Positions 37,116-52,973 are shown, counted from the first letter of the stretch. The stretch is DNA of 64,000 bases from Rhodothermales bacterium (GCA_022825385.1 JAJDWX010000015.1:115831-179830), one strand, 5' to 3'. Made by a program: numbers and translations. The notes: a model not told the origin generated them from the letters alone.

Positions 37116-37146
37116 ATTCACGAATATTTACCCATTTATCGTGAAT
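37116..37146. promoter_or_regulatory. inverted repeat ATTCACGA-N15-TCGTGAAT immediately upstream of fic
   Basis: Perfect 8-bp arms 37116-37123 and 37139-37146; a further GTGAAT copy at ~37090. Confidence 0.5.
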
Positions 37147-37162
37147 GCGATGCCATAACGAC

Positions 37163-38053
37163 ATGGCGATTACCCGGCCCATACAAAACCGTATCCAGGA
37201 CCTGAAGCGGGCGTACGATACTTTGCGTCGGGGCAAGGAAGCGTTACTGGCCATGATCGACGGAGTGGAGATTGCCGAGACGGTGTACAACTCGAACGCG
37301 ATCGAGAATTCAACCCTTACGCTTGAGGAGACGGAGCGAATCCTTTTGGAGGAGATGCTTTCCCGCAACGTGTCTGTACGGGAAATCTTCGAGGCAAAGA
37401 ACCTGGCCCGCGTCATGGAATACAAACGCGCCAAAGCCAGGAGCAGCGAGTTAAGCAAAGACCTGATACTCCGTTTGCATCGAATGCTCATCGGCGGTAT
37501 TGACGACGGCATCGCCGGACGTTTTCGCCAGCCGGGGGAATACGTGCGCGTGGGGATGCACATTGCGCCCGCGCCCGAACGCGTGGAGGGCATGATGGAC
37601 GATCTGCTCGCCGAATATTCCAGCGATCTCGGCTCCTACTTCCTTGACAAGATTGCCCGGTTTCATCTTGATTTCGAGAACATCCATCCTTTTTGCGACG
37701 GCAACGGTCGCCTGGGGCGCGTACTCATAAATTTTCAACTCATCCAACTCGGCCTGCCGCGTCTTATTCTTCGCAATGCGGATAAAGAACGGTACTATCG
37801 GGCATTCAGGGAATACGACAATCGCCAGGCGACGAAGACGATGGAAGACATGCTGGCGGCGGCGCTCACAGAGTCCCTGCACAAAAGGCTGAGTTATTTG
37901 CGGGGAGAGGTCATTGTCCGGTTGTCGGATTACATCAGGCAGCACGGGCTTTCGGCGCCTGCGGTTACTAATGCCGCTCGCCGCCAGACCATTCCCGCGT
38001 TTCGCGAGAAGGGCGTGTGGAAGATCGGGGCGGAATTCGCGTACGGGACCTGA
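37163..38053 (+). CDS. Fic-domain protein (predicted AMPylase, N-terminal inhibitory helix)
   Basis: HPFCDGNGRLGR Fic motif; NSNAIENSTL inhibitory-type motif; C-terminal winged-helix-like tail. Confidence 0.92.
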   Translation: MAITRPIQNRIQDLKRAYDTLRRGKEALLAMIDGVEIAETVYNSNAIENSTLTLEETERILLEEMLSRNVSVREIFEAKNLARVMEYKRAKARSSELSKDLILRLHRMLIGGIDDGIAGRFRQPGEYVRVGMHIAPAPERVEGMMDDLLAEYSSDLGSYFLDKIARFHLDFENIHPFCDGNGRLGRVLINFQLIQLGLPRLILRNADKERYYRAFREYDNRQATKTMEDMLAAALTESLHKRLSYLRGEVIVRLSDYIRQHGLSAPAVTNAARRQTIPAFREKGVWKIGAEFAYGT

Positions 38054-38215: not shown

Positions 38216-40750
38216 ATGAACGAAGCCACTGCAAGAATCAAAATAAACCGATTGCTGGAAGAAGCCGGCTGGCGTTTTTTCCCTGACGGGGACAAGCCCG
38301 CCAATATTGCCCTTGAAGTCGGCGTCACCATCAAAAATTCCGATATCGACGCTCTCGGCAACGATTTCGAGAAGACATCCCGGGGATCTGTCGATTTCCT
38401 GCTTCTGGACGAAAAGGGTTTCCCGCTTATTGTCCTTGAAGCTAAATCGGAGAAAAAAGAGCCCCTGATTGGCAAGGAGCAGGCCCGCAGGTACGCCCGC
38501 TCGCAAAACTGCCGCTTTGTCATCCTTTCTAACGGGAATCTGCATTATTTCTGGGACATTGAGCAGGGAAATCCCTACCAGCTTACGGCATTTCCCTTCC
38601 CGGATTCGGTGGGCGAACGCCGCAAGCGAAGCGTTCCCGATACCCAGCGTCTAATCGCCGAAAAAGTCGAAAGCGACTACATTGTTCTTACCCAGCGTCC
38701 CAACTATGCTGCCGAAGCTGGTTGGAAAATCGAATCCGAACGCGATGCCTATATTGAGGCCAACGAGCTACGATTCCTTCGGGATTATCAGTTGCAGGCC
38801 ATCCATGCCGTGCAACGGTCGGTGAAGGAGGGAAACAGCCGATTTCTTTTCGAAATGGCGACCGGCACGGGCAAAACGCTTACGGCGGCGGCGGTAATCA
38901 AACTGTTTCTGCGCAGCGGCAACGCACAGCGCGTACTCTTCCTTGTAGACCGCCTCGAACTGGAAAACCAGGCATATAAAGCCTTTACCGGGCTGCTCTC
39001 GGCAGATTTCGAGACGCATATCTACAAGGAAAATCGGGACAACTGGCGCCGCGCCGAAATCGTCGTCAGCACGGTCCAGTCACTGTTGTTCAACAATAAA
39101 TACCAGCAGCTTTTCTCGCCCACGGACTTCGATTTGGTCATTTCGGACGAAGCACATCGCTCCATCGGCGGAAACGCCCGGGCGGTTTTCGATTATTTCG
39201 TGGGCTATAAACTCGGCCTCACCGCCACGCCCCGCGACTACTTGAAAGGCGTGGACAAGGAAAATTCCTCTGTCCGCGATCCGCGCGCAACCGAACGCCG
39301 ATTGTTGCTCGACACGTACCGCACTTTCGGTTGCGAGAGCGGGCAGCCCACGTTCCGGTATTCGCTGCTCGACGGCGTAAAAGACGGTTACCTCATCAAC
39401 CCGACCGTGGTAGACGCCCGTACGGAAATAACCACGCAACTCCTTTCGGAAGAAGGATATATCGTTTCGTTCAACGAGGAGGCTACCGGAGAAAACGAGG
39501 AAGACGATTTCAAAAGACGCGACTTCGAAAAGCGATTCTTTTCCGACGCCACCAACGTCTTGTTTTGCAAAACCTTTCTGGAAAACGCCCTCCGCGACCC
39601 CGTAAGCAGAGAGATTGGCAAATCCATCGTTTTCGCCGTCAGCCAGAACCACGCAGCCAAATTGACGCAGATTCTCAACGAGATCGCCGACCGTCTTTTC
39701 CCGGGGAAATACCAGTCAGACTTTGCCGTGCAGGTCACTTCGTTGATACCGCAGGCGCAGCAATTCACAATCAATTTCGCCAACAACAACCTTTTGGGTT
39801 CCTGCAATTTTCTGGACGAATACCGCACCAGCAAGGCCCGCGTATGCGTCACCGTCGGCATGATGACTACGGGCTACGATTGCACGGACCTGCTCAACCT
39901 CGGTTTATTCCGCCCCATCTTCTCGCCTACCGATTTTATCCAGATCAAGGGGCGCGGCACTCGAAAGCATAATTTTCTCAAAGAGATTCGCGACGAGAGC
40001 CTGAAAATCGGCGTAGCGCAGCCAGAAAAAACGAGTTTCAAACTTTTCGACTTCTTCGCGAACTGCGAATATTTCGAAACCGAGTTCAATTACGACGAAG
40101 TGCTAAAATTGCCTCGGCCCGGGCCGCGCACCGTGGACGACGGGGAGGGGGCCGCGGTCTCTTTCGGTACGTACGAGCACCTTGGAATCGACAGCCTCTG
40201 GACGCTAAAGGAAGAGCAAATCGGGTTCGAGGGCATGAAGATCGACAGGATGTTCTTCGACCGATTCGCTGACGAGGTGCGGGAAAACCAATTTATTGTT
40301 CAAGCGGTTGAAGCGGGGCAATGGGATCGCGTGATCGATTATGTGAACAGAGAAGTCTTTGACCAGCCCGAAGAATACTACAACCTTCCCAAACTGCGCC
40401 AGGCCGCTGCGGTGGATCGCCGCCTCACCCTGCGCGAAATACTGGAGAAAATCTTCGACCTCATTCCGCGTTTCAAATCCAAAGAGGAACTGCTGGAAGA
40501 GGAGTTCAACAAATTTGTTGCCGATTACAAGCCTGAAGAGGCTGCATCCATCCCGGCTATCAAAACCTACTTCAAAGCATACGTTACGAGCGACCAGATT
40601 CGCCATATTATCGACAGCCGGTATTTCTCTGATTTGGCGACCAATCCGGTTTTTTCCCTGGGCGATCTTCGGGCGGTTCCGCAGCGATACCGCGACATCA
40701 TCCCCGAATACGTCAAGGATTATGTCCCGCTAAACCAGTTTGCCCCATAG
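38216..40750 (+). CDS. hsdR: type I restriction endonuclease R subunit
   Basis: Nuclease VDFLLLDEKGFPLIVLEAKSEKK; FEMATGTGKTLTAAAVIKLF; LVISDEAHRSIGG; IKGRGTRKHNFL. Confidence 0.95.
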   Translation: MNEATARIKINRLLEEAGWRFFPDGDKPANIALEVGVTIKNSDIDALGNDFEKTSRGSVDFLLLDEKGFPLIVLEAKSEKKEPLIGKEQARRYARSQNCRFVILSNGNLHYFWDIEQGNPYQLTAFPFPDSVGERRKRSVPDTQRLIAEKVESDYIVLTQRPNYAAEAGWKIESERDAYIEANELRFLRDYQLQAIHAVQRSVKEGNSRFLFEMATGTGKTLTAAAVIKLFLRSGNAQRVLFLVDRLELENQAYKAFTGLLSADFETHIYKENRDNWRRAEIVVSTVQSLLFNNKYQQLFSPTDFDLVISDEAHRSIGGNARAVFDYFVGYKLGLTATPRDYLKGVDKENSSVRDPRATERRLLLDTYRTFGCESGQPTFRYSLLDGVKDGYLINPTVVDARTEITTQLLSEEGYIVSFNEEATGENEEDDFKRRDFEKRFFSDATNVLFCKTFLENALRDPVSREIGKSIVFAVSQNHAAKLTQILNEIADRLFPGKYQSDFAVQVTSLIPQAQQFTINFANNNLLGSCNFLDEYRTSKARVCVTVGMMTTGYDCTDLLNLGLFRPIFSPTDFIQIKGRGTRKHNFLKEIRDESLKIGVAQPEKTSFKLFDFFANCEYFETEFNYDEVLKLPRPGPRTVDDGEGAAVSFGTYEHLGIDSLWTLKEEQIGFEGMKIDRMFFDRFADEVRENQFIVQAVEAGQWDRVIDYVNREVFDQPEEYYNLPKLRQAAAVDRRLTLREILEKIFDLIPRFKSKEELLEEEFNKFVADYKPEEAASIPAIKTYFKAYVTSDQIRHIIDSRYFSDLATNPVFSLGDLRAVPQRYRDIIPEYVKDYVPLNQFAP

Positions 40751-40756
40751 AATCTC

Positions 40757-43264
40757 ATGCTGGACGCCGCCACCAAACGCCGCATTGATACTGCCCGCGA
40801 TATTCTCGTGGGCAAGGTGCCCGATCCCAAAAGCCAGGTCGAGCAGATCACCATTGCGTTGATCTACAAGTTCATGGACGACATGGATGCCGAGAGCGAG
40901 GAGTTGGGCGGCGAGCGAAAGTTTTTCGCCGGAGAATTCGCCCGCTTCGGTTGGCCCCGGCTGGTCCGTTCCGGGTTGGGAGGCCACGAAATATTGAATC
41001 TGTACGCCGAAGCGATCACCAGAATGCCGGAAAACCCGGGCATCCCGTCGCTATTCCGGGAGATATTCAAAAACGCCTACCTTCCGTACCGCGACCCGGA
41101 AACGCTGCGCGCATTTCTCAAAGTTATTGACGAGTTCGAATACGACCACAGCGAACGGCTGGGCGACGCCTTCGAGTATTTGCTCTCGGTTCTTGGTTCG
41201 CAAGGCGACGCCGGGCAGTTCCGCACCCCGCGTCATATCATCGACTTCATGGTTGCCCTCGTTGATCCGAAAAAAGACGAAACCGTTCTTGACCCGGCTT
41301 GCGGCACCGCCGGGTTCCTGATTTCGTCCTATAAGCATATTTGCAGCGCCAACAAGGACAACAAGGGGCAAGATACCCTCACATCCGACGAAAAGAAAAA
41401 GCTTGCGGGCAATTTCATGGGGTACGACATTTCGCCTGACATGGTGCGCCTGTCGCTGGTGAATATGTACCTGCACGGCCTCTTAGATCCGCACATCGTC
41501 GAATACGATACCCTGACAAGCGAGGATCGGTGGAACGAATTCGCGGACGTGATTCTGGCCAATCCGCCCTTCATGTCGCCGAAGGGAGGCATTCGACCGC
41601 ACAATCGCTTCTCCGTGCAATCCAAACGCAGCGAAGTCCTGTTCGTGGACTATATGGCCGAGCATTTGACTCCTTCCGGGCGGGCCGCTATCATCGTACC
41701 GGAGGGCATCATCTTCCAGAGCCAGAAGGCCCATAAAAGTCTGCGCAAGATGCTGGTGGAAAATTATCTGGTGGCGGTCATTTCGCTGCCGGCGGGCGTA
41801 TTTCAGCCATATTCGGGCGTCAAAACGTCTATTCTTCTGCTGGACAAGGCGCTGGCGAAAAGGACTGACCGAATTGCGTTTTTCAAGGTGGAAAACGACG
41901 GGTACGACCTCGGCGCCCAGCGGCGGCCTATCGACAAGAATGATCTTCCGCGGGTGCAGGCAGAGGTTGGCGAATATCTGCGCGAGCTACGGGCGGGCGA
42001 ATCAATGCCAACTGCCCGTGTGGCGGAATCCAAGACGGAGTACAGAACGAATGCATCCACAGCGATGCCTCGACTAATTGCCGAGAAGGATAAAATCGCG
42101 ACAGGTGGAGAGTATAATTTAAGCGTGGAGAGATATAAAAAACATGAAAAGCGCTCGTCAATTTTCCCCAAATATCGATTGGGAGAAATAATAAAAATCA
42201 GATTCGGTACTCGTATAACAAAGCGAGATAATCAAGGAACTCTTTACCCGGTTTATGGTGGTGGTGGAGAAAGTTTTCGGACCGATACATATACCAGAGA
42301 AAATGATGTCGTGATTTCACGATTCGCAATGTCTACAGAATGCGTCCGAATTGTTCGTGAGAAGTTTTATCTTCTGGATTCAGGTTTTACATTTTCTGTT
42401 GCTGATAATTTTCATGATCGGATAACGAAAGAATTTTTAATATATATTCTACTCAATATTCAAGATGTAATTTACCAATGTGCGCGTGGTCATGCACAGA
42501 AAAATTTAGATGTAAAAGCATTTAAGGATATACAAATTCCCCTGCCGCCACTGGAAGTGCAGCAAGAAATTGTGGCAGAGATTGAGGGGTATCAGCGGGT
42601 GATAGACGGAGCGCGGGCGGTGATTGACAACTATCGACCGCAGATTGTGGTTGATCCTGAGTGGCCGATGGTGGCGATCAAAGAAATAGCATCGGTGAAA
42701 AGTGGATTTGGTTTTCCTCCTATTTATCAAGGGACACCTAATGAGGCCATCCCCTTTTTAAAGGTGAGTGATATGAATTTGTCAGGCAACGAAGTTCAAA
42801 TTATGTCTTGGAATAATGCAGTATCCAAGGCCAATCTACATAAAATCAAGGCGAAGGCTTTTCCAGCAAGGACGGTTATTTTTCCCAAAATTGGTGCCGC
42901 TATTGCCACGAATAAAAAGCGTATTCTCACCCGGCCATCGACCTATGACAACAACGTTATGGGCATTATCTCAAACACAGACAATCTCTTACCAGAGTTT
43001 TTATACGCCTATTTGGCTTCGTTTGACATCTCTCAGTGGGCTAGCGACTCACAACCGCCATCAATGCGCAAGACAGTGGTTGAAGAACATCAGGTTCCTC
43101 TTCCTCCCCTCGAAACCCAGCAAGCAATCATTACCGAAATCGAAGATGAGCAGGCTCTTGTCTCCGGGAATCGGGAGTTGGTGGAGCGGATGGAGGGAAA
43201 AATTAAGGCTGCCATCAGTCGCGTATTGGACGATGATAAAAGCGATAACACAGAAGATAGATAG
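40757..43264 (+). CDS. type I RM M subunit fused to S subunit (HsdM-HsdS, two TRDs)
   Basis: HsdM: QFRTPRHIIDFMVALVDPKKDETVLDPACGTAGFL, DVILANPPFM. HsdS: two TRD-conserved blocks ending IPLPPLEVQQEIVAEIE and VPLPPLETQQAIITEIE. Confidence 0.93.
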   Translation: MLDAATKRRIDTARDILVGKVPDPKSQVEQITIALIYKFMDDMDAESEELGGERKFFAGEFARFGWPRLVRSGLGGHEILNLYAEAITRMPENPGIPSLFREIFKNAYLPYRDPETLRAFLKVIDEFEYDHSERLGDAFEYLLSVLGSQGDAGQFRTPRHIIDFMVALVDPKKDETVLDPACGTAGFLISSYKHICSANKDNKGQDTLTSDEKKKLAGNFMGYDISPDMVRLSLVNMYLHGLLDPHIVEYDTLTSEDRWNEFADVILANPPFMSPKGGIRPHNRFSVQSKRSEVLFVDYMAEHLTPSGRAAIIVPEGIIFQSQKAHKSLRKMLVENYLVAVISLPAGVFQPYSGVKTSILLLDKALAKRTDRIAFFKVENDGYDLGAQRRPIDKNDLPRVQAEVGEYLRELRAGESMPTARVAESKTEYRTNASTAMPRLIAEKDKIATGGEYNLSVERYKKHEKRSSIFPKYRLGEIIKIRFGTRITKRDNQGTLYPVYGGGGESFRTDTYTRENDVVISRFAMSTECVRIVREKFYLLDSGFTFSVADNFHDRITKEFLIYILLNIQDVIYQCARGHAQKNLDVKAFKDIQIPLPPLEVQQEIVAEIEGYQRVIDGARAVIDNYRPQIVVDPEWPMVAIKEIASVKSGFGFPPIYQGTPNEAIPFLKVSDMNLSGNEVQIMSWNNAVSKANLHKIKAKAFPARTVIFPKIGAAIATNKKRILTRPSTYDNNVMGIISNTDNLLPEFLYAYLASFDISQWASDSQPPSMRKTVVEEHQVPLPPLETQQAIITEIEDEQALVSGNRELVERMEGKIKAAISRVLDDDKSDNTEDR

Positions 43265-43299
43265 CCATTTCAGTATGTGTTACAAAAATTAATTTACCA

Positions 43300-44256
43300 T
43301 CAATTTAAAGGCAGATATTTTTGAATTTCGTTGAAAATATCACGCATAGGAGCGGGTATATTTTTATAGTTGAAGGTAGTGGATTTTTCCAATAATCGGC
43401 ATATTCTATACCGATCACATAAAATGCAATTGATAGTATGATTCCTAGATTCACTCCATTTTTTTCCATTACGACGCGGAAAATGTGGTATGAAGAAAAA
43501 ATTAGGAGGCTCTACATCTAGTCGCAAAAATCCAGACAAGGCATGAGAAGGTTTAGCCTCATGTTTTTTGTTCCACCATTCTTTACTCACTGTGCACTGA
43601 GCAAAAGCAAAAAATGGATACTCTAACGCGTCTTCAAAAGAACAAATTGCTATTAAATCGATGCCGAATTCTTGTTGTGTTTTAGAGAGCTCCTGATCTG
43701 AATACACTATAGTATTTAATTTTTCTGCCAATTTGGGAATAGCTTCTATAGCAGGCCATCCAAATTTTTGTTTTCTATCATCACTATTCTGGCTAAAAAG
43801 AAGAACTTCAGCCCAATCAGGAAACAATGCTCGCATCGCCTCTTTACAGAGATTTTCAAACTGGATCCTTAGATTATGGGCTAGAGGGGGAATACGATTA
43901 TGAGACGAACAAGCCAATAAAAAAAGATAAGATAAATAGTGCTTTTTTGAATCGGAAGGTGCAAAATAGATTTCATCATGTTCGCATTTAAATGGATAAG
44001 TTTCCCCCAGCCATGATGCACGTCGTTCAATAAGGGATATTGCGTCTTCAAAGGGTGTATTAAAATCATCTATTTCATCCCCATGCGAAAAAGATACAGC
44101 ATTATTCACAAGTTCACTTTGAAGTTGATTAATAAAATTTGCTTTCGTTAAATGACCGCCGTGAGTATCATCTGAAAATGCAACCAGCAATTCGATACAA
44201 TCTGCTAACTCAATTACATTCTCGATGATTTCTTGATCCCATCTAAAATCAATCAT
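43300..44256 (-). CDS. uncharacterised protein, predicted nuclease-like (GIDLIA...AQC..W..K)
   Basis: FGIDLIAICSFEDALEYPFFAFAQCTVSKEWWNKKHEAKPSH resembles the G(L/I)DxVAW...GQ(C/V)A(S/T)G..W..K signature of predicted restriction-like proteins; 1-nt gap to the ParB-like gene. Confidence 0.5.
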   Translation of the reverse strand: MIDFRWDQEIIENVIELADCIELLVAFSDDTHGGHLTKANFINQLQSELVNNAVSFSHGDEIDDFNTPFEDAISLIERRASWLGETYPFKCEHDEIYFAPSDSKKHYLSYLFLLACSSHNRIPPLAHNLRIQFENLCKEAMRALFPDWAEVLLFSQNSDDRKQKFGWPAIEAIPKLAEKLNTIVYSDQELSKTQQEFGIDLIAICSFEDALEYPFFAFAQCTVSKEWWNKKHEAKPSHALSGFLRLDVEPPNFFFIPHFPRRNGKKWSESRNHTINCILCDRYRICRLLEKSTTFNYKNIPAPMRDIFNEIQKYLPLN

Positions 44257-44257
44257 C

Positions 44258-45322
44258 TTAATTCACTCTTAAATGTTGGATTGCTATATCAAGGACTTTC
44301 ATTGCCTCACGGACACGCCTAACGGCTTGTTCATCATTGAGCGAAACTGAATGTAGATTAGAATTTGCATTTCTAAGATGTTGAGTGGCGATAAGTATAT
44401 CCTGTAAGAACTCCTCTTTATTGTCTTTCGTGGCATCGAAGGCAGCCTTTAAAGGCAATCCATTACGAAGCATTTCTAAAGCCTTAGGGTGTGCCACAAC
44501 TGCGCTCAATTTACTAATATTTCGAGATTCACCTAGACGTGTGTAACCATCACTATCTTTTTGAAATATCCATTCAGTAAGATCATTAAGGGGTTTTGTT
44601 TTGAAACAATCAGGATTAACGATAGGGTGAGTCGGCTGATTGTTGTGTCTGATACCGATAAATGAAGCAATATTAAGATTTCCAACGGCTGTGTAAAAGA
44701 CACCAAATTGAAAATTTTCTTCATCCAAATCTTTAATCTCAAAGAAATCATATGTTTTTATAGCTTCATAAGCTGCTAAGGCATCCAAACTTCGTCGAAC
44801 AGCATTGCTTTTACTTCCAATTTCACGAGCAATTGTAATATATCGCTGCTCTGGTTCACCAGGTATTTGGTCAAATAATAATTTTAAATATCGTGCCTTT
44901 GCCATAGGATCCCATCGTTGTACACCAGAAATATGACGAAATCCTAAATATTGTAGGGCATTTTCTCTTGTATCGACGATATACGCCCAAATTTTTACTG
45001 GCTTATATTGGGCTTTTTCCCAAATCTTTTTTATACTACTAATATCACCTGCTAAGGTGGGGTCTTGTAATAGTCGTAATGCGGTAAGTCTTCGGTTACC
45101 TTCTAAAACTATATACTTACCGTTTTCGGTAGGAGTTACTACAATAGTTTCACCTTTAAAAAAATTATTTGTGCTAATTGAAATCATTAAATCTTCAATA
45201 TTAGTCTTTTTTGCTAAATATTCGATGATGTTTTTTTCTCTTGGAAGTATAGTAATTGGCAAACGTGGATTTTGCTTATCGAGTTTTAATTCGTTAATAT
45301 TTAACATTTTAAAATTTTTCAT
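44258..45322 (-). CDS. ParB-like nuclease-domain protein
   Basis: LKLDKQNPRLP...GETIVVTPTENGKYIVLEGNRRLTALRLLQDP, VQRWDPMAKARYLKLLFDQ; 4-nt overlap with the MTase gene. Confidence 0.82.
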   Translation of the reverse strand: MKNFKMLNINELKLDKQNPRLPITILPREKNIIEYLAKKTNIEDLMISISTNNFFKGETIVVTPTENGKYIVLEGNRRLTALRLLQDPTLAGDISSIKKIWEKAQYKPVKIWAYIVDTRENALQYLGFRHISGVQRWDPMAKARYLKLLFDQIPGEPEQRYITIAREIGSKSNAVRRSLDALAAYEAIKTYDFFEIKDLDEENFQFGVFYTAVGNLNIASFIGIRHNNQPTHPIVNPDCFKTKPLNDLTEWIFQKDSDGYTRLGESRNISKLSAVVAHPKALEMLRNGLPLKAAFDATKDNKEEFLQDILIATQHLRNANSNLHSVSLNDEQAVRRVREAMKVLDIAIQHLRVN

Positions 45323-46260
45323 GCGAATACCTCTTTTGGTAAAGCCTCGAAAATTTGTTGAAAAATCATCGGTGGAACTGCATTACCGACAACCTTGTAT
45401 TTGCTATTCAATCCGGCTGTATCTGGAAATTTCCAACCACTGAGGTCCTGAAGTATCGCTGCTTCTTTGTATGAAAACCGACGAGCCTTTTTAGGATCTC
45501 CCTGAAAAACCCATTTATCCTTCCCCGTTTTTTTTAATGGCGGACTCATGGGATGCAATGGCATGTGCCGTGGATTTGCAAGTATTGTCTTACTCGGTTC
45601 ATTCCATCCTCGATAACGATTTCGGGATAGATAATACCAATGAAAATCCTGATCGGAAAATTCACCATAAGGCCATTTTTTCTCCAGTTTTTTCAGTACA
45701 TCTTCTTGTGTTCTAACCGGTTTCAATCCCGATCCGTGTGTGGGTTTAGGAAATCGATATCGCAATCCGAAATTTGACCGGATACCCACTATAAAAATTC
45801 GTCGCCGTTCTTGTGCCAACCCATACTGTACAGCATTGACAAAATCCCAAGTAACCCTATAGCCAGCTGAACGAAAACGGACAAGCTGAGCATTTAAAAA
45901 ATGCCTATTGTCGCTTCTTGCCATACCAGGTACGTTTTCCACAATAAAAACCTTGGGACGAATCTGTCGGAGGGCACGGTCAAATTCTCGATAAAGTCGA
46001 TTTATTTTACGATCACTTTGGCGCGCCCCGCCTTGACAGTAACCTTGGCATGGATAGCAGCCGGCTAAAATATCTGCCACAGGAAAATCTTTAATTTCTT
46101 CAATACTATCGATTTTGAAATCGGTTTCGGGCAAATTAGCCTCATAGACATCTTTGGCATAGCTTAGAATATCATTTGCCATCAGAATCTCGCAACCAGC
46201 GTCGATTAGACCCCGATCTGATCCCCCGCATCCGGTAAAAAGAGAAACAGCCTTGATCAT
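45319..46260 (-). CDS. DNA (cytosine-5) methyltransferase
   Basis: AVSLFTGCGGSDRGLIDAGCEILMANDI, GCYPCQGYCQGGARQSDRKINRLYREF, FIVENVPGMARS, ERRRIFIVGIRSN, VVGNAVPPMIFQQI. Confidence 0.95.
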   Translation of the reverse strand: MIKAVSLFTGCGGSDRGLIDAGCEILMANDILSYAKDVYEANLPETDFKIDSIEEIKDFPVADILAGCYPCQGYCQGGARQSDRKINRLYREFDRALRQIRPKVFIVENVPGMARSDNRHFLNAQLVRFRSAGYRVTWDFVNAVQYGLAQERRRIFIVGIRSNFGLRYRFPKPTHGSGLKPVRTQEDVLKKLEKKWPYGEFSDQDFHWYYLSRNRYRGWNEPSKTILANPRHMPLHPMSPPLKKTGKDKWVFQGDPKKARRFSYKEAAILQDLSGWKFPDTAGLNSKYKVVGNAVPPMIFQQIFEALPKEVFA

Positions 46261-46574
46261 TGCTCTGCCCTCTTTACCAGAACAAGTGTGTCTGCTGTTT
46301 TCAAGGCCGCCCGAAGCCGGGCGGCTGTCGAGTCGAGTGACCGGTAGTGCTGTGTGCGACCTCTTTCGGGCCGATACTTTGTTGCGTAGGCAGTCCTGCG
46401 ATCCTTGACCCGTACAAAGACAACGATAGGGTCGAAGCCCTCTGGAGCACGGGAACGGAACAGCGATTCCCGGAGCCTCCTGTCAATGACCGCGGTCAAG
46501 GTGAGCACCGTGTTTGCAGCGATGCCCTTGATCCCCTCAAAGAGGTGGGTGTCGATATGGATTGTCATCGGCAT
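46257..46574 (-). CDS. VapB-type antitoxin N-terminus fused to an unrelated tail; overlaps MTase start (ATGA)
   Basis: MTIHIDTHLFEGIKGIAANTVLTLTAVIDRRLRESL matches intact VapB MRTTIHIDDHLFAELKGIAASTKRTLTSVIDEALRESL (49640-49888); tail RTAYATKYRPERGRTQHYRSL... unrelated. Confidence 0.55.
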   Translation of the reverse strand: MPMTIHIDTHLFEGIKGIAANTVLTLTAVIDRRLRESLFRSRAPEGFDPIVVFVRVKDRRTAYATKYRPERGRTQHYRSLDSTAARLRAALKTADTLVLVKRAEQ

Positions 46575-46856
46575 GCGCGAAACATATGAATTAAAAATAT
46601 TTTTGTCAACCCCCAATCTGCAGATAGCGTTACTAGGGTGCCTCAGGTTAGCTGGACAGAAATTTGAAATTTTAAGGTGTAATATTAAGGCTTGTAGCCG
46701 AATGCGTTTGGGCACTTAGGCAGGAAATAGTGTCCAAACCGATATGTGGCCCATCCTGATTGCTCGAAATATCGGGGATATTTTCGCCGGTGAATACGGG
46801 ATCAACAACCAGTGGGCCTACGCCAATTGCGGCATCCCGTTTAAATTCCGCTCTTC

Positions 46857-47243: not shown

Positions 47244-47795
47244 TCAAGGTTTTTGAGGGGCTGGATAGCCACAGACGCCAATGGCCACTGCAAAGCTGAA
47301 TGCCTCCATGTTATTATGCTGGTAAGCCAAGCCTTTGCCATTGGGCTTGTCCCAAAAATACCGAACATCTGTAATGGGGTTTTTTCCCAGAAAGTCAAGC
47401 AGGGATTTTAGAGGGGTTACTTTTTCTGCTCTATTTTCGCGCACTATTTCCTTTGCCCTTTCTTGATATAGAGATTCTATCTTTATCCGCTCTTTCTCTG
47501 GAAGGTCAGCGAAAAGTTTGCATATATTGTGGCCCCTCTTTGTTTTTAATTCTCCTCCGGCCCTTTTGTCGATTTGTTGATGAGCATATTTAAGGAGGAT
47601 TTCGATGGTGTATAGACTAACTATGCACTTGGCCATGATGAAGCCAAATTTAAGGTTTTCACTCAAGTCATCGCGCCGCCCTGCTTCTCTTAGGGCTTTC
47701 TTTATGCCCTTTTCAGGGAATGGTATGTCGGCAAAAATAAAAATGCCCTCCATGGTTTTAAGGGGTATTTCTTGTGTTTTTTCTTTTTTGTCCAT
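47244..47795 (-). CDS. hypothetical helical protein, possible HEPN-like
   Basis: KFGFIMAKCIVSLYTIEILLKYAHQQIDKRAGGELKTKRGHNICKLFADLPEKERIKIESLYQE; catalytic RX4-6H not evident. Confidence 0.4.
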   Translation of the reverse strand: MDKKEKTQEIPLKTMEGIFIFADIPFPEKGIKKALREAGRRDDLSENLKFGFIMAKCIVSLYTIEILLKYAHQQIDKRAGGELKTKRGHNICKLFADLPEKERIKIESLYQERAKEIVRENRAEKVTPLKSLLDFLGKNPITDVRYFWDKPNGKGLAYQHNNMEAFSFAVAIGVCGYPAPQKP

Positions 47796-47883
47796 AGTTT
47801 AGGTCTTGCTTTTTTTATTTTACGACATTTGGCTCTCGCCTCATGCCGATGTGAGGATACTTATCGTCGTACATCGGAACCTC

Positions 47884-48918
47884 CTATTCCCGGTTAATAG
47901 CAGGAAGACTATTAACCGACTTCGCTCGTTGGAGCACCTCCTTGCGATAATGAAATCGCTCAAGAGCAACCTGAATATCCTCGTCGCGCAGTTTACTTGT
48001 TCCAGCCAATGCGCAACGCTTTCTCGCCTCAAGACATACACGCTCTGCCTCCGCAAACGATGCTCCGGAAACAGCTTCTACTAATATACTGATTTGACTT
48101 TTAGTAGTACGAAGAGGGCGAAATCTCTTCATCATCAAGGTTTTCAAACCTTTTTGATCAGGCAATTCGAACCGTAGTACATCATCAAATCGGCGCCATA
48201 TTGCTGGATCTATAGCCTGTTCGAAATTAGTCGCTGCAATGACAAGAGAACGCCCATTGAAACTGTCGAGAAGTTGTAAGAATGAGTTCACGACGCGCTT
48301 GATCTCTCCATGTTCCGTTGCATCGTCACGCGAGCGACCAATTGCATCAAATTCATCAAAGAAAACCACCCAAGGCCCCCTGCTTGCATAATCGAATACC
48401 TTGCGGAGATTCGCTGCGGTTTCTCCAAGAAGAGAAGATACGACGCTATCGAATCGGACATACAGCATGGGTAAAGCCAATTCTGCTGCAATGACCTGTG
48501 CGCATTCCGTTTTGCCACATCCAGAAGGACCACAAAAAAGGAGTCGATGCGTAGGCGTAAGCCCATGCGCCTCAAGGATTTCCCAGCCACGAACTTCGGC
48601 TATGACCCGGCGAAGCGCGGTGTAGGTCCTGGTATCCAGTACCATATCATCAAAATACCGGTCAGGCGTACGAACAGAAAGGAGCGGAGTTTTCCGGTCA
48701 CTGTCCATCGGCACTGGGTCGAATACAGGTCCGTTGCTTCGCATTCTCTCCATTGACCGCGTGCCATTGCCTAAAATGAATTGAAGTTCATTAGCAAGAA
48801 CAAGATGCTGTTTCTTCCTTTCCTCATCAATGATTTCGGAGGCAATGTCACGAAAGCCTGTGTCATCGCGTCGTTGATACGTTTCGAACAATTTTTTCAG
48901 TAAATCCGCACGTGCCAT
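47884..48918 (-). CDS. AAA+ ATPase (central-domain type)
   Basis: HRLLFCGPSGCGKTECAQVIAAELALPMLYVRFDSVVSSLLGETAANLRKVFDYA, WVVFFDEFDAIGRSRDDATEHGEIKRVVNSFLQLLDSF. Confidence 0.92.
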   Translation of the reverse strand: MARADLLKKLFETYQRRDDTGFRDIASEIIDEERKKQHLVLANELQFILGNGTRSMERMRSNGPVFDPVPMDSDRKTPLLSVRTPDRYFDDMVLDTRTYTALRRVIAEVRGWEILEAHGLTPTHRLLFCGPSGCGKTECAQVIAAELALPMLYVRFDSVVSSLLGETAANLRKVFDYASRGPWVVFFDEFDAIGRSRDDATEHGEIKRVVNSFLQLLDSFNGRSLVIAATNFEQAIDPAIWRRFDDVLRFELPDQKGLKTLMMKRFRPLRTTKSQISILVEAVSGASFAEAERVCLEARKRCALAGTSKLRDEDIQVALERFHYRKEVLQRAKSVNSLPAINRE

Positions 48919-49212
48919 GATCGCCTTCCGGGTTGCTTGTGACTTCCTGAGAGTGTAAGGGTGGCGATTTTCAAGGACTATGCGGTGGTCGCGACGGCAC
49001 GATATCGGGGTTTTTAACACCCGCCCGCGATTCAAAAAGATCGTCGGGGCTTACCCGACAGCCGGTTGGCGACCTCGTGGCGGGGGGCCTCGTCCGGCAG
49101 AGCGACGGAACATAATATAGGAATTCGACAGGGCCACTGCCAACAGATTTTCGAAAAAATTTCCACCAGAGGGCCGTGTTGTCCCTGTTTTACACATTCT
49201 TGGCCATCCGCC

Positions 49213-49674
49213 TCAGCACGTCTCCACCCGCGGCGGGCGCTGCCACCGCAACCCTTCGAACCGGGCGAAATCCCGATCCAGCGTAATCCATTCGCAGCCG
49301 GACTCGATCGCCAGGGCGGCGAACCAGGCATCCGGAATCAGATTGCCCCGCGCTTCCGCATCCCGGCAGAGCCGCGTGAAAATATCCCAGTGTCGCAGAC
49401 CCGGGGCAATCGGAACGCAGTGCGGCTGATCCCGGACAACCTTTGCAAATTCCAGCGCATGCTTCAGGGGACTGGGGAGACGGAAAATGCGCGGATGGGT
49501 GACTACGCGGAGAAATCCGCTCAAGACCAGATCGGCCATGCCGAAAGCCTCGTCTCCTTTCAGCGCGGCATCAAGCCATGACCGGCAAGAGGCATGTTCC
49601 GGGGCGTCGCAGCGATACGCCGCAACAAGCACGTTTACGTCAGGAAGAACCACGATCCGCCTCCATATGATCAA
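49213..49674 (-). CDS. PIN-domain toxin (VapC family)
   Basis: VVLPDVNVLVAAYRCDAPEHASCRSWLDAAL...DAWFAALAIESGCEWITLDRDFARFEGLRW; overlaps the upstream RHH antitoxin. Confidence 0.92.
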   Translation of the reverse strand: MIIWRRIVVLPDVNVLVAAYRCDAPEHASCRSWLDAALKGDEAFGMADLVLSGFLRVVTHPRIFRLPSPLKHALEFAKVVRDQPHCVPIAPGLRHWDIFTRLCRDAEARGNLIPDAWFAALAIESGCEWITLDRDFARFEGLRWQRPPRVETC

Positions 49675-49888
49675 GCAAGGCGGCCGAATCGCTCAGGTCC
49701 ACGCCGGGCATGAGCCCGCTACCGTGGAAGAGCGGCAAATCGACGGCGGGACGTTCCGGGTCGCGCCGCCGGGACAGCGATTCCCGGAGCGCCTCGTCAA
49801 TGACCGAGGTCAGGGTGCGTTTGGTGCTTGCAGCGATGCCTTTGAGCTCCGCAAACAGGTGGTCGTCGATATGGATTGTCGTGCGCAT
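49640..49888 (-). CDS. VapB-family antitoxin
   Basis: MRTTIHIDDHLFAELKGIAASTKRTLTSVIDEALRESLSRR; directly upstream of the PIN gene. Confidence 0.9.
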   Translation of the reverse strand: MRTTIHIDDHLFAELKGIAASTKRTLTSVIDEALRESLSRRRDPERPAVDLPLFHGSGLMPGVDLSDSAALLDHMEADRGSS

Positions 49889-50071
49889 GCATAAAAACAT
49901 ACATATTAAACATATTTATGTCAACCCCGAATATACAGATAAGGTCCCCGCTGGTCAAAGAATTATCCAGGTCAAAAAACAGCGGGGGATGGTTCAGGAT
50001 TTATCCCGAAAGTCCGCCTTCCAAAAGGGGCGGATGCCGGGGTCCCCGTTATCGCCTTGCTACGTCCCCAG

Positions 50072-50879: not shown

Positions 50880-52973
50880 ATGAACCAATTTTCCGGTCGT
50901 ACAATCCGCACGTTTAATCCAGGCGCATTTCAATCCGATCAGGAAATAATCGACCAGTTCGTGGTCCGGCAACGCGAACTTGGCGTCGTGCTCGACGTTC
51001 TCCGCGGCAACATGGATTCGGCGTCGTGCCAACATATCCTGGTCGTGGCGCCGCGCGGTCAGGGCAAGACCATGCTCTTGGCGCGGGTCGCTGCAGAATT
51101 GAACGCGGACGACACGTTTTCCGAGCGGCTTTTGCCGATTCGGTTCATGGAGGAAAGTCACGAGATATTCGATCTTGCCGACTTCTGGCTTGAAACACTG
51201 TTTTATCTTGCACAGGAGAGCGCAAAACACAATCCCGAATTTGCCCAGGAATTGCAAGAAGCGCATGCCGATCTGGTCAAGAGATGGGGCGAAGAAGCGC
51301 TTGCTGATCGCGTACGCGCCACGGTGCTGGAGGCCGCGGACCTGCTGGGTAAAAAACTTGTTCTGATGATTGAAAATATGCAAGGTCTTTGCGAAAATGT
51401 GGACGACGATTTTGGATGGCAACTTCGGGCAGCGCTGCAATCGGAACCGCAAATTATGCTGCTTGCTACCGCCACAAGCCGATTTGCAGGATTAGACGAT
51501 GCAAACCAGCCATTTTTTGAATTATTTCACACTATAACCCTTGATCCGCTGGATACGGCAGCATGCCGACGTTTATGGAAAGTGGTTAGCGGAGACAATG
51601 TGAACGAGCGCGAAATCAGGCCGCTTGAAATTCTAACCGGCGGGAGTTCGCGCCTTCTGGTAATTCTCGGAGGTTTCGCGCAGCACCGGTCTCTAAGCGA
51701 ATTGATGGAAGAACTGGTGCAATTGATCGACGAACATACCGAATATTTTCGTGGACATCTGGAAGCGTTGGCCAAAACCGAGCGCAGGGTCTACCTTGCG
51801 GTGATCGATCTTTGGCGTCCGTCAAGCACAGGGGAAATCGCAGAGCGGGCCCGCATGGACGTTCGAACAGTATCTGCATTGCTTGGCCGACTCATCGACC
51901 GTGGCATGGTTGTCATCTTTGAGGGAGGTAATCGAAAACGGCTATACGTCGCCGCAGAGCGCATCTACTGTCTTTATTACAAATTGCGTCGGGAACGCGA
52001 CGAAGCGGATGTGGTGAAGGAGCTAATTCAGTTTATGGTTGTGTTCTATAACGAAGAGGAAATGGTCAGGATGGCCAACAAGTGGATTGCAGAGGCGGGT
52101 CGATTTCCAAAGATTCGTAAGGGTATTGAACGTGCGATTGACGAAGAACCGGATGTCGGCGAGCTGTTCCCTGGCGTTGCGGAGCCACGCGTGGCTTACG
52201 TAGCCGTGCCGGATACGCCGGACGGCAATGAGTGTACCGAACGCTTGTTCGAAGAGATGTCCGCCCTGTTCGAAACAGCGGAAACGTACGTGGAGGCCGG
52301 CGATGTCACAGCCGCGCTGGCGATTTACAATCAGGTAATTGAACGTTTTGACGATAACTATGCGTTAGAATTTCAGATATACGTAGCCTGGGCCTTGTCT
52401 GAAAAGGGATATGCGTACCAGGAACTTGGCGATTTCGATGCAGCGCTTGCGGCTTACGATGAAGTGATAGAGCGCTTTGGCTCCAGCAATGCAGAAGAAC
52501 TACAAATATCAATTGTTTGTGCACTTTTTGAGAAGGGTATAAGACAACTGAAGATGGGAAATAAGGAAGAAGCACTACGTGTGCGGAAAGATTTTTTCCA
52601 TCGGTTTCAATCATTGAATGATTTATCGAGGATAGATTGTGTATTTCGAACAATCATTATGCGGTCACAAGCAATATCAATACAAAATCATCTCGATATT
52701 GCTTCAGATATATTTCGATTTGTGTATATGTTATTGATTACCGAAGAAAAAATAATCATAGACATGATACAACGCATTGCGCTCGATATGATTGCGGCGG
52801 GCGCTTCGGCGCATGAGATGGTCGATATATTGTCGAGCGACCGCATCAAAGCCCGCGTCCTGAGACCATTGATCGTCGCTCTTCGTCAGTATGCCGGAGA
52901 AACGGTTCGTTCTCCTGTAGAAATTCGCGAGGTTGCGGCGGATATTCGGGAACGTATAGCGAAAGAAAAATAG
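50880..52973 (+). CDS. STAND-like P-loop NTPase with winged-helix and C-terminal TPR-like repeats
   Basis: RQRELGVVLDVLRGN...ILVVAPRGQGKTMLLARVA; KLVLMIENMQGLCENVDDD; wHTH SSTGEIAERARMDVRTVSALLGRLIDRGMV; TPR-like AALAIYNQVIERFDDNY...AALAAYDEVIERFGSSN. Confidence 0.8.
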   Translation: MNQFSGRTIRTFNPGAFQSDQEIIDQFVVRQRELGVVLDVLRGNMDSASCQHILVVAPRGQGKTMLLARVAAELNADDTFSERLLPIRFMEESHEIFDLADFWLETLFYLAQESAKHNPEFAQELQEAHADLVKRWGEEALADRVRATVLEAADLLGKKLVLMIENMQGLCENVDDDFGWQLRAALQSEPQIMLLATATSRFAGLDDANQPFFELFHTITLDPLDTAACRRLWKVVSGDNVNEREIRPLEILTGGSSRLLVILGGFAQHRSLSELMEELVQLIDEHTEYFRGHLEALAKTERRVYLAVIDLWRPSSTGEIAERARMDVRTVSALLGRLIDRGMVVIFEGGNRKRLYVAAERIYCLYYKLRRERDEADVVKELIQFMVVFYNEEEMVRMANKWIAEAGRFPKIRKGIERAIDEEPDVGELFPGVAEPRVAYVAVPDTPDGNECTERLFEEMSALFETAETYVEAGDVTAALAIYNQVIERFDDNYALEFQIYVAWALSEKGYAYQELGDFDAALAAYDEVIERFGSSNAEELQISIVCALFEKGIRQLKMGNKEEALRVRKDFFHRFQSLNDLSRIDCVFRTIIMRSQAISIQNHLDIASDIFRFVYMLLITEEKIIIDMIQRIALDMIAAGASAHEMVDILSSDRIKARVLRPLIVALRQYAGETVRSPVEIREVAADIRERIAKEK

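Follow-up and report, generated by a model that had tools for sequence, protein, structure and literature searches.

PD-lambda-5, an E. coli defense system (PMC9519451; PADLOC PD-Lambda-5_A), combines a ParB-like protein with a DNA methylase and occurs in P2-like prophages. The same holds for relatives of the three-gene locus (trio) described here, which encodes a C5-cytosine methylase, a ParB-like protein, and a predicted nuclease in a 64-kb stretch of Rhodothermales DNA (hereafter the window, 64,000 nt in full). The N-terminal part of PD-Lambda-5_A (about 150–180 residues) is homologous to the ParB-like protein of the window. However, the PD-Lambda-5_A models are mostly 430–610 aa in length and the window protein matches their N-terminal domain only, such that the trio was rejected as a PD-lambda-5 system, i.e., one long A protein with a C-terminal effector plus a methylase. 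Moreover, no separate PD-(D/E)xK gene was seen in PD-lambda-5, whereas the trio has a separate nuclease gene. A PD-lambda-5-like pair was also observed in Marinobacter phage AS1 (locus L195, 2971–5436), where a 486-aa protein sharing the ParB N-domain accompanies a D12 adenine methylase.

SspE and DndI, in which a ParB-superfamily NTPase sensor is coupled to a nuclease, both read phosphorothioates: SspE is activated by the mark, and DndI is released by it (PMC13251355, PMC11662687). The trio resembles them in this coupling, with EGNRR in its ParB-like protein where they have DGQQR, and in a link to phosphorothioation, as some relatives of the ParB-like/nuclease pair sit on dnd operons. Unlike these single DUF262-HNH proteins, the trio has a full ParB-like protein with a helix-turn-helix and a separate PD-(D/E)xK protein. 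An assignment to SspE, DndI, or GmrSD (DUF262 plus HNH, DUF1524) was rejected, with GmrSD_N below the cut-off and no HNH domain match.

The 5mC-dependent endonuclease MspJI (PDB 4f0p) ranks first for the trio nuclease in both fold and profile searches, and its catalytic Asp and Gln align. However, the sequence match covers the nuclease domain only, the position of the lysine differs, and the trio consists of several genes, one of which encodes a methylase of the system itself. With HaeIII-type type II restriction-modification (R-M) systems, the trio shares a methylase homologous to M.HaeIII through the recognition region, but the one restriction endonuclease of those systems contrasts with ParB-like and PD-(D/E)xK proteins on the restriction side of the trio. 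The PADLOC candidate PDC-M38A matches residues 27–342 of the ParB-like protein (E = 1e-27); however, this model is 715 aa long and the trio nuclease matches no PADLOC model. A survey of ParB folds describes, in the parts consulted, ParB-fold proteins fused to HNH and to methylase domains; the present ParB-nuclease pair is not mentioned there (PMC12704722). Likewise, a full-text literature search, with most subscription papers, preprints, and REBASE outside its scope, returned no description of the pair. A reading of this DNA made from its sequence alone (hereafter the sequence-only reading) had stated that the combination matches no nameable defense system. Partial relatives do exist, however, in PD-lambda-5 and SspE/DndI. 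The trio is probably a so far undescribed variant of restriction-modification, and an earlier mention elsewhere is possible.

Gene organization and genomic context

The trio comprises the following genes, all on the minus strand:

45319..46260, minus strand: C5-cytosine DNA methyltransferase, M.HaeIII-like, 313 aa (Pfam PF00145 and M.HaeIII matches)
45319..45322, minus strand: overlap of the methylase and parB genes, 4 nt (from ORF coordinates)
44258..45322, minus strand: ParB-like protein, 354 aa (AlphaFold2 model, fold and profile matches)
43300..44256, minus strand: predicted PD-(D/E)xK-type nuclease, 318 aa (AlphaFold2 model, MspJI fold and profile matches)

The three co-directional ORFs, the 4-nt overlap, and the 1-nt gap between the ParB-like and nuclease genes (44257) are all present as the sequence-only reading had described, and so are the motifs that it quoted (VLEGNRRLTALRLLQDP; GIDLIA...FAQCTVSKEWWNKK). 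Its end of the operon at 46574 was about 300 nt too far, with the methylase frame beginning at 46260. The overlap makes translational coupling of the methylase and parB genes likely. Just upstream of the methylase gene, an ORF at 46257–46715 (minus strand), in a different frame and without a Pfam family, corresponds to a VapB-like fragment. By eye, it looks like a decayed copy of the antitoxin of the VapBC pair that neighbors the trio at 49213–49900 (minus strand).

The surroundings of the trio are a defense island, because a type I R-M operon, an IetA-like gene, and the VapBC genes adjoin it. The type I operon faces the trio, with HsdR at 38216–40750 and a fused HsdM-HsdS at 40757–43264. In this convergent operon (38216–43264, plus strand), HsdM and two specificity domains are fused in one protein, and a Fic protein is encoded just upstream (37145–38053). 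On the other side, an IetA-like defense AAA ATPase (47884–49035, minus strand, within 47244–49035) is followed by an ORF of 183 aa that has no match in Pfam, NCBIfam, or PADLOC. This ORF lies where an IetS protease would be expected and is possibly a variant partner of the ATPase. Further away, an AAA_16 ATPase with winged-helix and TPR repeats (50880–52973, plus strand; STAND-like) is possibly a defense or regulatory protein.

The trio is likely an import, since the GC content around it is 0.38–0.40 (42000–46000) in a 64-kb window that is mostly near 0.6, forming a low-GC island. Among the best 80 genomic relatives, those nearest to the window ParB-like protein are from Latescibacterota and Chloroflexota (50–65% identity), and the trio was not found in five other genomes of the same genus. 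In a scan for promoters and terminators, the signal was no higher than in shuffled sequences, and Rfam and tRNA searches gave no match.

Methylase and its predicted target

The first protein of the trio matches the Pfam DNA_methylase family (PF00145, E = 2e-54). Among PDB entries, the best match is to M.HaeIII (1dct) and spans the entire protein (E = 1e-40); similarity to M.HhaI is confined to the N-terminal part. Within the recognition region, R213, R215, and R231 of the window methylase align with R225, R227, and R243 of M.HaeIII, which contact the GGCC target in the M.HaeIII structure. The recognition region was scored by alignment of 55 methylases from the loci compared, because simple regular expressions were too strict. 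Arginine occupies the three M.HaeIII positions in 45/55, 47/55, and 39/55 of these partner methylases, respectively, so that a HaeIII-like recognition region is found in most of them across otherwise divergent systems. Given this similarity to M.HaeIII and the presence of all three arginines in the window protein, GGCC is the most likely target, with 5-methylcytosine as the predicted mark.

Fold and motifs of the ParB-like protein

By sequence, this protein is only weakly ParB, as the Pfam ParB_N and GmrSD_N matches are both below the cut-off (for GmrSD_N, 18.7 bits versus 33.2). A profile match to the ParB structure 4umk was found (E = 7e-5). The AlphaFold2 monomer model (pLDDT 94.4) has a ParB-type NTP-binding domain, a helix-turn-helix, and a helical C-terminal domain. 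Foldseek returned 13 matches with E ≤ 1e-3, all of which are ParB, KorB, or Noc proteins and cover the NTPase and DNA-binding domains. Based on the modeled N-terminal fold and the motif below, the protein is predicted to be a member of the ParB/Srx NTPase superfamily.

45089..45103, minus strand: EGNRR motif, ParB-like residues 74–78 (invariant in 69/69)
44789..44854, minus strand: helix-turn-helix, ParB-like residues about 157–178 (AlphaFold2 helices 157–168 and 172–190; PDB fold matches)

Across 69 relatives, the invariant positions are E58, E74-G-N-R-R-L79, A81, H130, G133, W137, and K142. The invariance of EGNRR, H130, G133, W137, and K142 at 30–40% sequence identity suggests a catalytic or switch role. 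A function as an NTP switch or DNA sensor, as the sequence-only reading had proposed, is plausible for the modeled protein. According to the ParB-fold survey, the superfamily members tested bind CTP, ATP, GTP, or nothing, and 11 of the 28 purified ParB-family proteins bound an NTP, such that NTP binding is not guaranteed (PMC12704722).

Predicted fold and proposed active site of the nuclease

The third protein belongs to no Pfam, NCBIfam, or PADLOC family, and 12 members of the nuclease family scanned against the same three collections showed no consistent family. All 12 match PHROG 3984, which has no known function, and PHROG 14650, likewise of unknown function, was matched too. An AlphaFold2 monomer model built with 70 relatives (pLDDT 91.8, pTM 0.92) has MspJI chains as its four best PDB fold matches (probability 1.00, 0.99, 0.99, and 0.77), although the best E-value is only 1.6e-3 and the TM-score is 0.31 despite this strong rank and probability. 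A profile of 70 members also has MspJI as its best PDB match (residues 302–360, E = 0.06), and the alignment pairs GlDivaw...QC of the nuclease with GVDFIGR...QAK of MspJI. In comparison, a 12-member profile found nothing meaningful in the PDB, and a search of a viral structure library with the model found nothing significant. Each of these lines is moderate alone, and their combination makes a PD-(D/E)xK fold likely. The restriction-like nuclease suspected from sequence is thus upheld by the structure check, in which the PD-(D/E)xK domain of MspJI emerges from the modeled fold as well as from the profile.

43657..43659, minus strand: D200 codon (invariant in 70/70; aligned with MspJI D334)
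43597..43599, minus strand: Q220 codon (invariant in 70/70; aligned with MspJI Q355)
43567..43569, minus strand: K230 codon (K in 66/70; proposed migrated catalytic lysine)

D334 and Q355 are catalytic residues of MspJI. Two further positions, D209 (68/70) and E134 (60/70), are also well conserved, and together E134, D200, D209, Q220, and K230 are proposed as the active site of the modeled enzyme. Of the D...Q-C/K arrangement named by the sequence-only reading, the D...Q part stands, but the Q-C/K part does not: the position two residues after Q220 has Lys in 2/70 members and A, T, or G in most, and the conserved lysine is K230, located in the next helix. Migration of the catalytic lysine is known in other PD-(D/E)xK enzymes, and K230 may stand in for the missing lysine of QxK.

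Conservation of the ParB-nuclease pair and its marking enzymes

Two sets of loci were compared, namely those of the best 80 of 542 genomic relatives and of the best 80 of 164 viral relatives. The viral set includes near-copies; the genomic loci were found with the ParB profile, and start codons in the relatives are longest-ORF guesses. The nuclease gene is directly downstream of the ParB-like gene in 79/80 genomic loci (best 80 of 542) and adjoins it in 79/80 viral loci (best 80 of 164), and the one exception in each set stops at a contig edge. This synteny check supports the view that the genes are co-conserved. Across the 857 kb of loci around the best 80 genomic relatives, 45 C5-methylases are within 2 kb of the pair and only 3 are farther off. 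With the 79/80 adjacency and these 45 near versus 3 far methylases, the arrangement of the trio is far beyond chance.

Throughout these loci, the partner genes of the ParB-like protein are the nuclease gene and either a methylase gene or dnd genes. A modification gene is present beside the pair in 61/80 genomic loci (best 80 of 542): 45 have a C5-methylase, 15 have dnd genes, and one has a D12 adenine methylase. The methylase gene is convergent in 20 of these genomic loci, first in 13 (as in the window), and last in 12; after the dnd and D12 types, the remainder of the best 80 have none recognised or are truncated. About 13 genomic loci have no modification gene nearby, several of them at contig edges. 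In L035, L052, L081, and L095, no modification gene was recognized near the pair although the contig runs on. In L056 (4284–8038), L076, and L093, a GmrSD-type enzyme or HNH_2 protein precedes the pair, replacing the modification gene. Among the viral loci (best 80 of 164), 76 have a C5-methylase and one a D12 adenine-type methylase, and the remaining three end less than 0.4 kb from the pair. Accordingly, a DNA methylase is present in 77/77 viral loci with room for one.

The distances among ParB-like proteins correlate with those among nucleases (Mantel r = 0.61; 0/1000 permutations), whereas methylase distances correlate with ParB or nuclease distances at 0.08. Even so, conservation within the trio is highest for the methylase, with a mean identity of 50% versus 37 and 26% for the other two proteins. 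Because the distances correlate within the pair but hardly with the methylase, the pair is the inherited unit, with a marking enzyme that is exchangeable, yet mostly of one recognition type. No fused ParB-nuclease protein was found in the 80 viral loci. In one phage-borne locus (L147, 6071–8212), an insertion of about 0.9 kb interrupts the nuclease gene and the methylase is intact. Decay of the nuclease with the methylase kept is the direction expected of R-M systems.

Phosphorothioation-linked loci

The 15 genomic loci with dnd genes in place of the methylase (best 80 of 542) are mostly from Bacteroidota. In 11 of these, DndC, DndD, and DndE all precede the pair and share one gene order; the other four have a partial or inverted set. 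For example, in L057 and L070 the genes immediately upstream of the pair encode DndC, an AAA_23 DndD-like ATPase, and a fusion of DndE with a HerA-like ATPase. DndC in both loci is a PAPS_reduct protein, and the L057 homolog matches the PADLOC DndC model with E = 4e-148. In the ParB tree (a quick tree with SH-aLRT only), a single switch between methylase and dnd is enough to explain the dnd-linked loci. A survey of dnd systems mentions ParB, in the parts consulted, only as DndB (PMC10853773).

Distribution in phages and E. coli

The trio is present in the P2-like coliphages 12474II and Wphi and in a P2 isolate, where the ParB-like and nuclease genes run toward the methylase gene, and also in Pseudomonas phage D14A. 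Among 5426 complete E. coli genomes, 141 (~2.6%) match the Wphi stretch. In 104 of these the match covers most of the stretch, and in the rest it comes from the related methylase; the trio was found in all records opened. In RefSeq, the three proteins are named "ParB N-terminal domain-containing protein", "hypothetical protein", and "DNA cytosine methyltransferase". The E. coli trio is located in the P2 interval between the replication endonuclease and portal genes, a region already recognized as a hotspot of antiviral genes (PMC9519451, PMC9122126). A plasmid search with the nuclease gave no match.

Proposed function and alternative explanations

We propose, with a probability of roughly 70%, that the trio is an R-M-type defense operon in which the ParB-like protein and the nuclease form a two-protein restriction endonuclease and self-marking provides protection. 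The methylase would mark the DNA of its own cell, most likely with 5-methylcytosine in GGCC, and the Dnd proteins would do the marking at dnd-linked loci. The ParB-like and PD-(D/E)xK proteins would jointly form the restriction enzyme, in which the ParB-like subunit, probably a dimer that closes or slides under NTP control, would use its helix-turn-helix and its ParB-type NTP-binding domain to read DNA and would license the nuclease to cut DNA with unmarked sites. From the features above, we infer complex formation, use of an NTP, GGCC specificity, cleavage of unmarked DNA, and protection from phages. A defense role is supported by the defense-like locations, i.e., the P2 hotspot and, in the window, a low-GC island with neighboring type I R-M and IetA-like genes. 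Points against the proposal are the weak E-value and TM-score of the MspJI fold match, the lack of the QxK lysine in most members, the genomic loci that have no modification gene nearby, and the patchy NTP binding among ParB-family proteins. Going further, the pair could tentatively be viewed as a portable restriction engine, in which an NTP clamp detects a blocking mark of either chemistry on GGCC.

The mark may alternatively act as a trigger and not only as a shield, with the ParB-like subunit sensing 5mC or phosphorothioate and then licensing the nuclease, as in SspE and MspJI. MspJI, the closest match to the nuclease domain, cleaves DNA in the vicinity of 5mC; SspE, itself a ParB-superfamily and nuclease protein, is activated by phosphorothioates (PMC13251355); and the pair combines with both 5mC and phosphorothioate systems. 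However, the sequence match to MspJI is confined to residues 302–360 in the nuclease domain, and DndI provides a ParB-superfamily precedent for cutting unmarked DNA (PMC11662687). Furthermore, if the mark were activating, the methylase could be lost without harm, yet none of the viral loci with room for a methylase is without one. Because of this constant presence of the methylase, comparison of the loci favors a shielding mark over an activating one, and modification-activated restriction is considered unlikely.

The independent evolution of the methylase relative to the pair (Mantel 0.08) and its three orientations would also suit an abortive module, in which the nuclease is a suicide DNase curbed by the ParB-like protein and the methylase belongs separately to the carrier element as an anti-restriction gene. 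A description as RM+Abi was given for PD-lambda-5, whose A protein has the ParB N-domain in common with the trio (PMC9519451). Nevertheless, a modification gene is nearly always there, the dnd set often replaces an absent methylase, and the recognition region is kept across otherwise divergent systems. This explanation is considered less probable than modification-activated restriction. Least probable is a type II restriction endonuclease made up of the nuclease only, with the ParB-like protein as an operon regulator or partition remnant. Although its fold is that of a ParB with a helix-turn-helix, like the repressor KorB, no ParB-like gene was found separated from a nuclease gene, the two proteins co-evolve, and EGNRR, H130, G133, W137, and K142 are invariant at 30–40% identity.

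Taken together, if the trio is a restriction-modification operon as proposed, it would represent a defense family that spans many phyla and is carried by ~2.6% of complete E. coli genomes and by the classic coliphage Wphi. This family would have been hidden behind annotations such as "ParB domain", "hypothetical protein", and seemingly orphan cytosine methylases. ParB-type clamps would then serve immunity and not DNA segregation alone. It is conceivable, if doubtful at present, that an NTP-gated sliding clamp defines a class of restriction enzymes that works with methylation or phosphorothioation. The re-pairing of one restriction module from methylation to phosphorothioation would be a natural experiment, and the way in which a self-mark is read by a ParB-superfamily sensor would become directly testable in E. 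coli.
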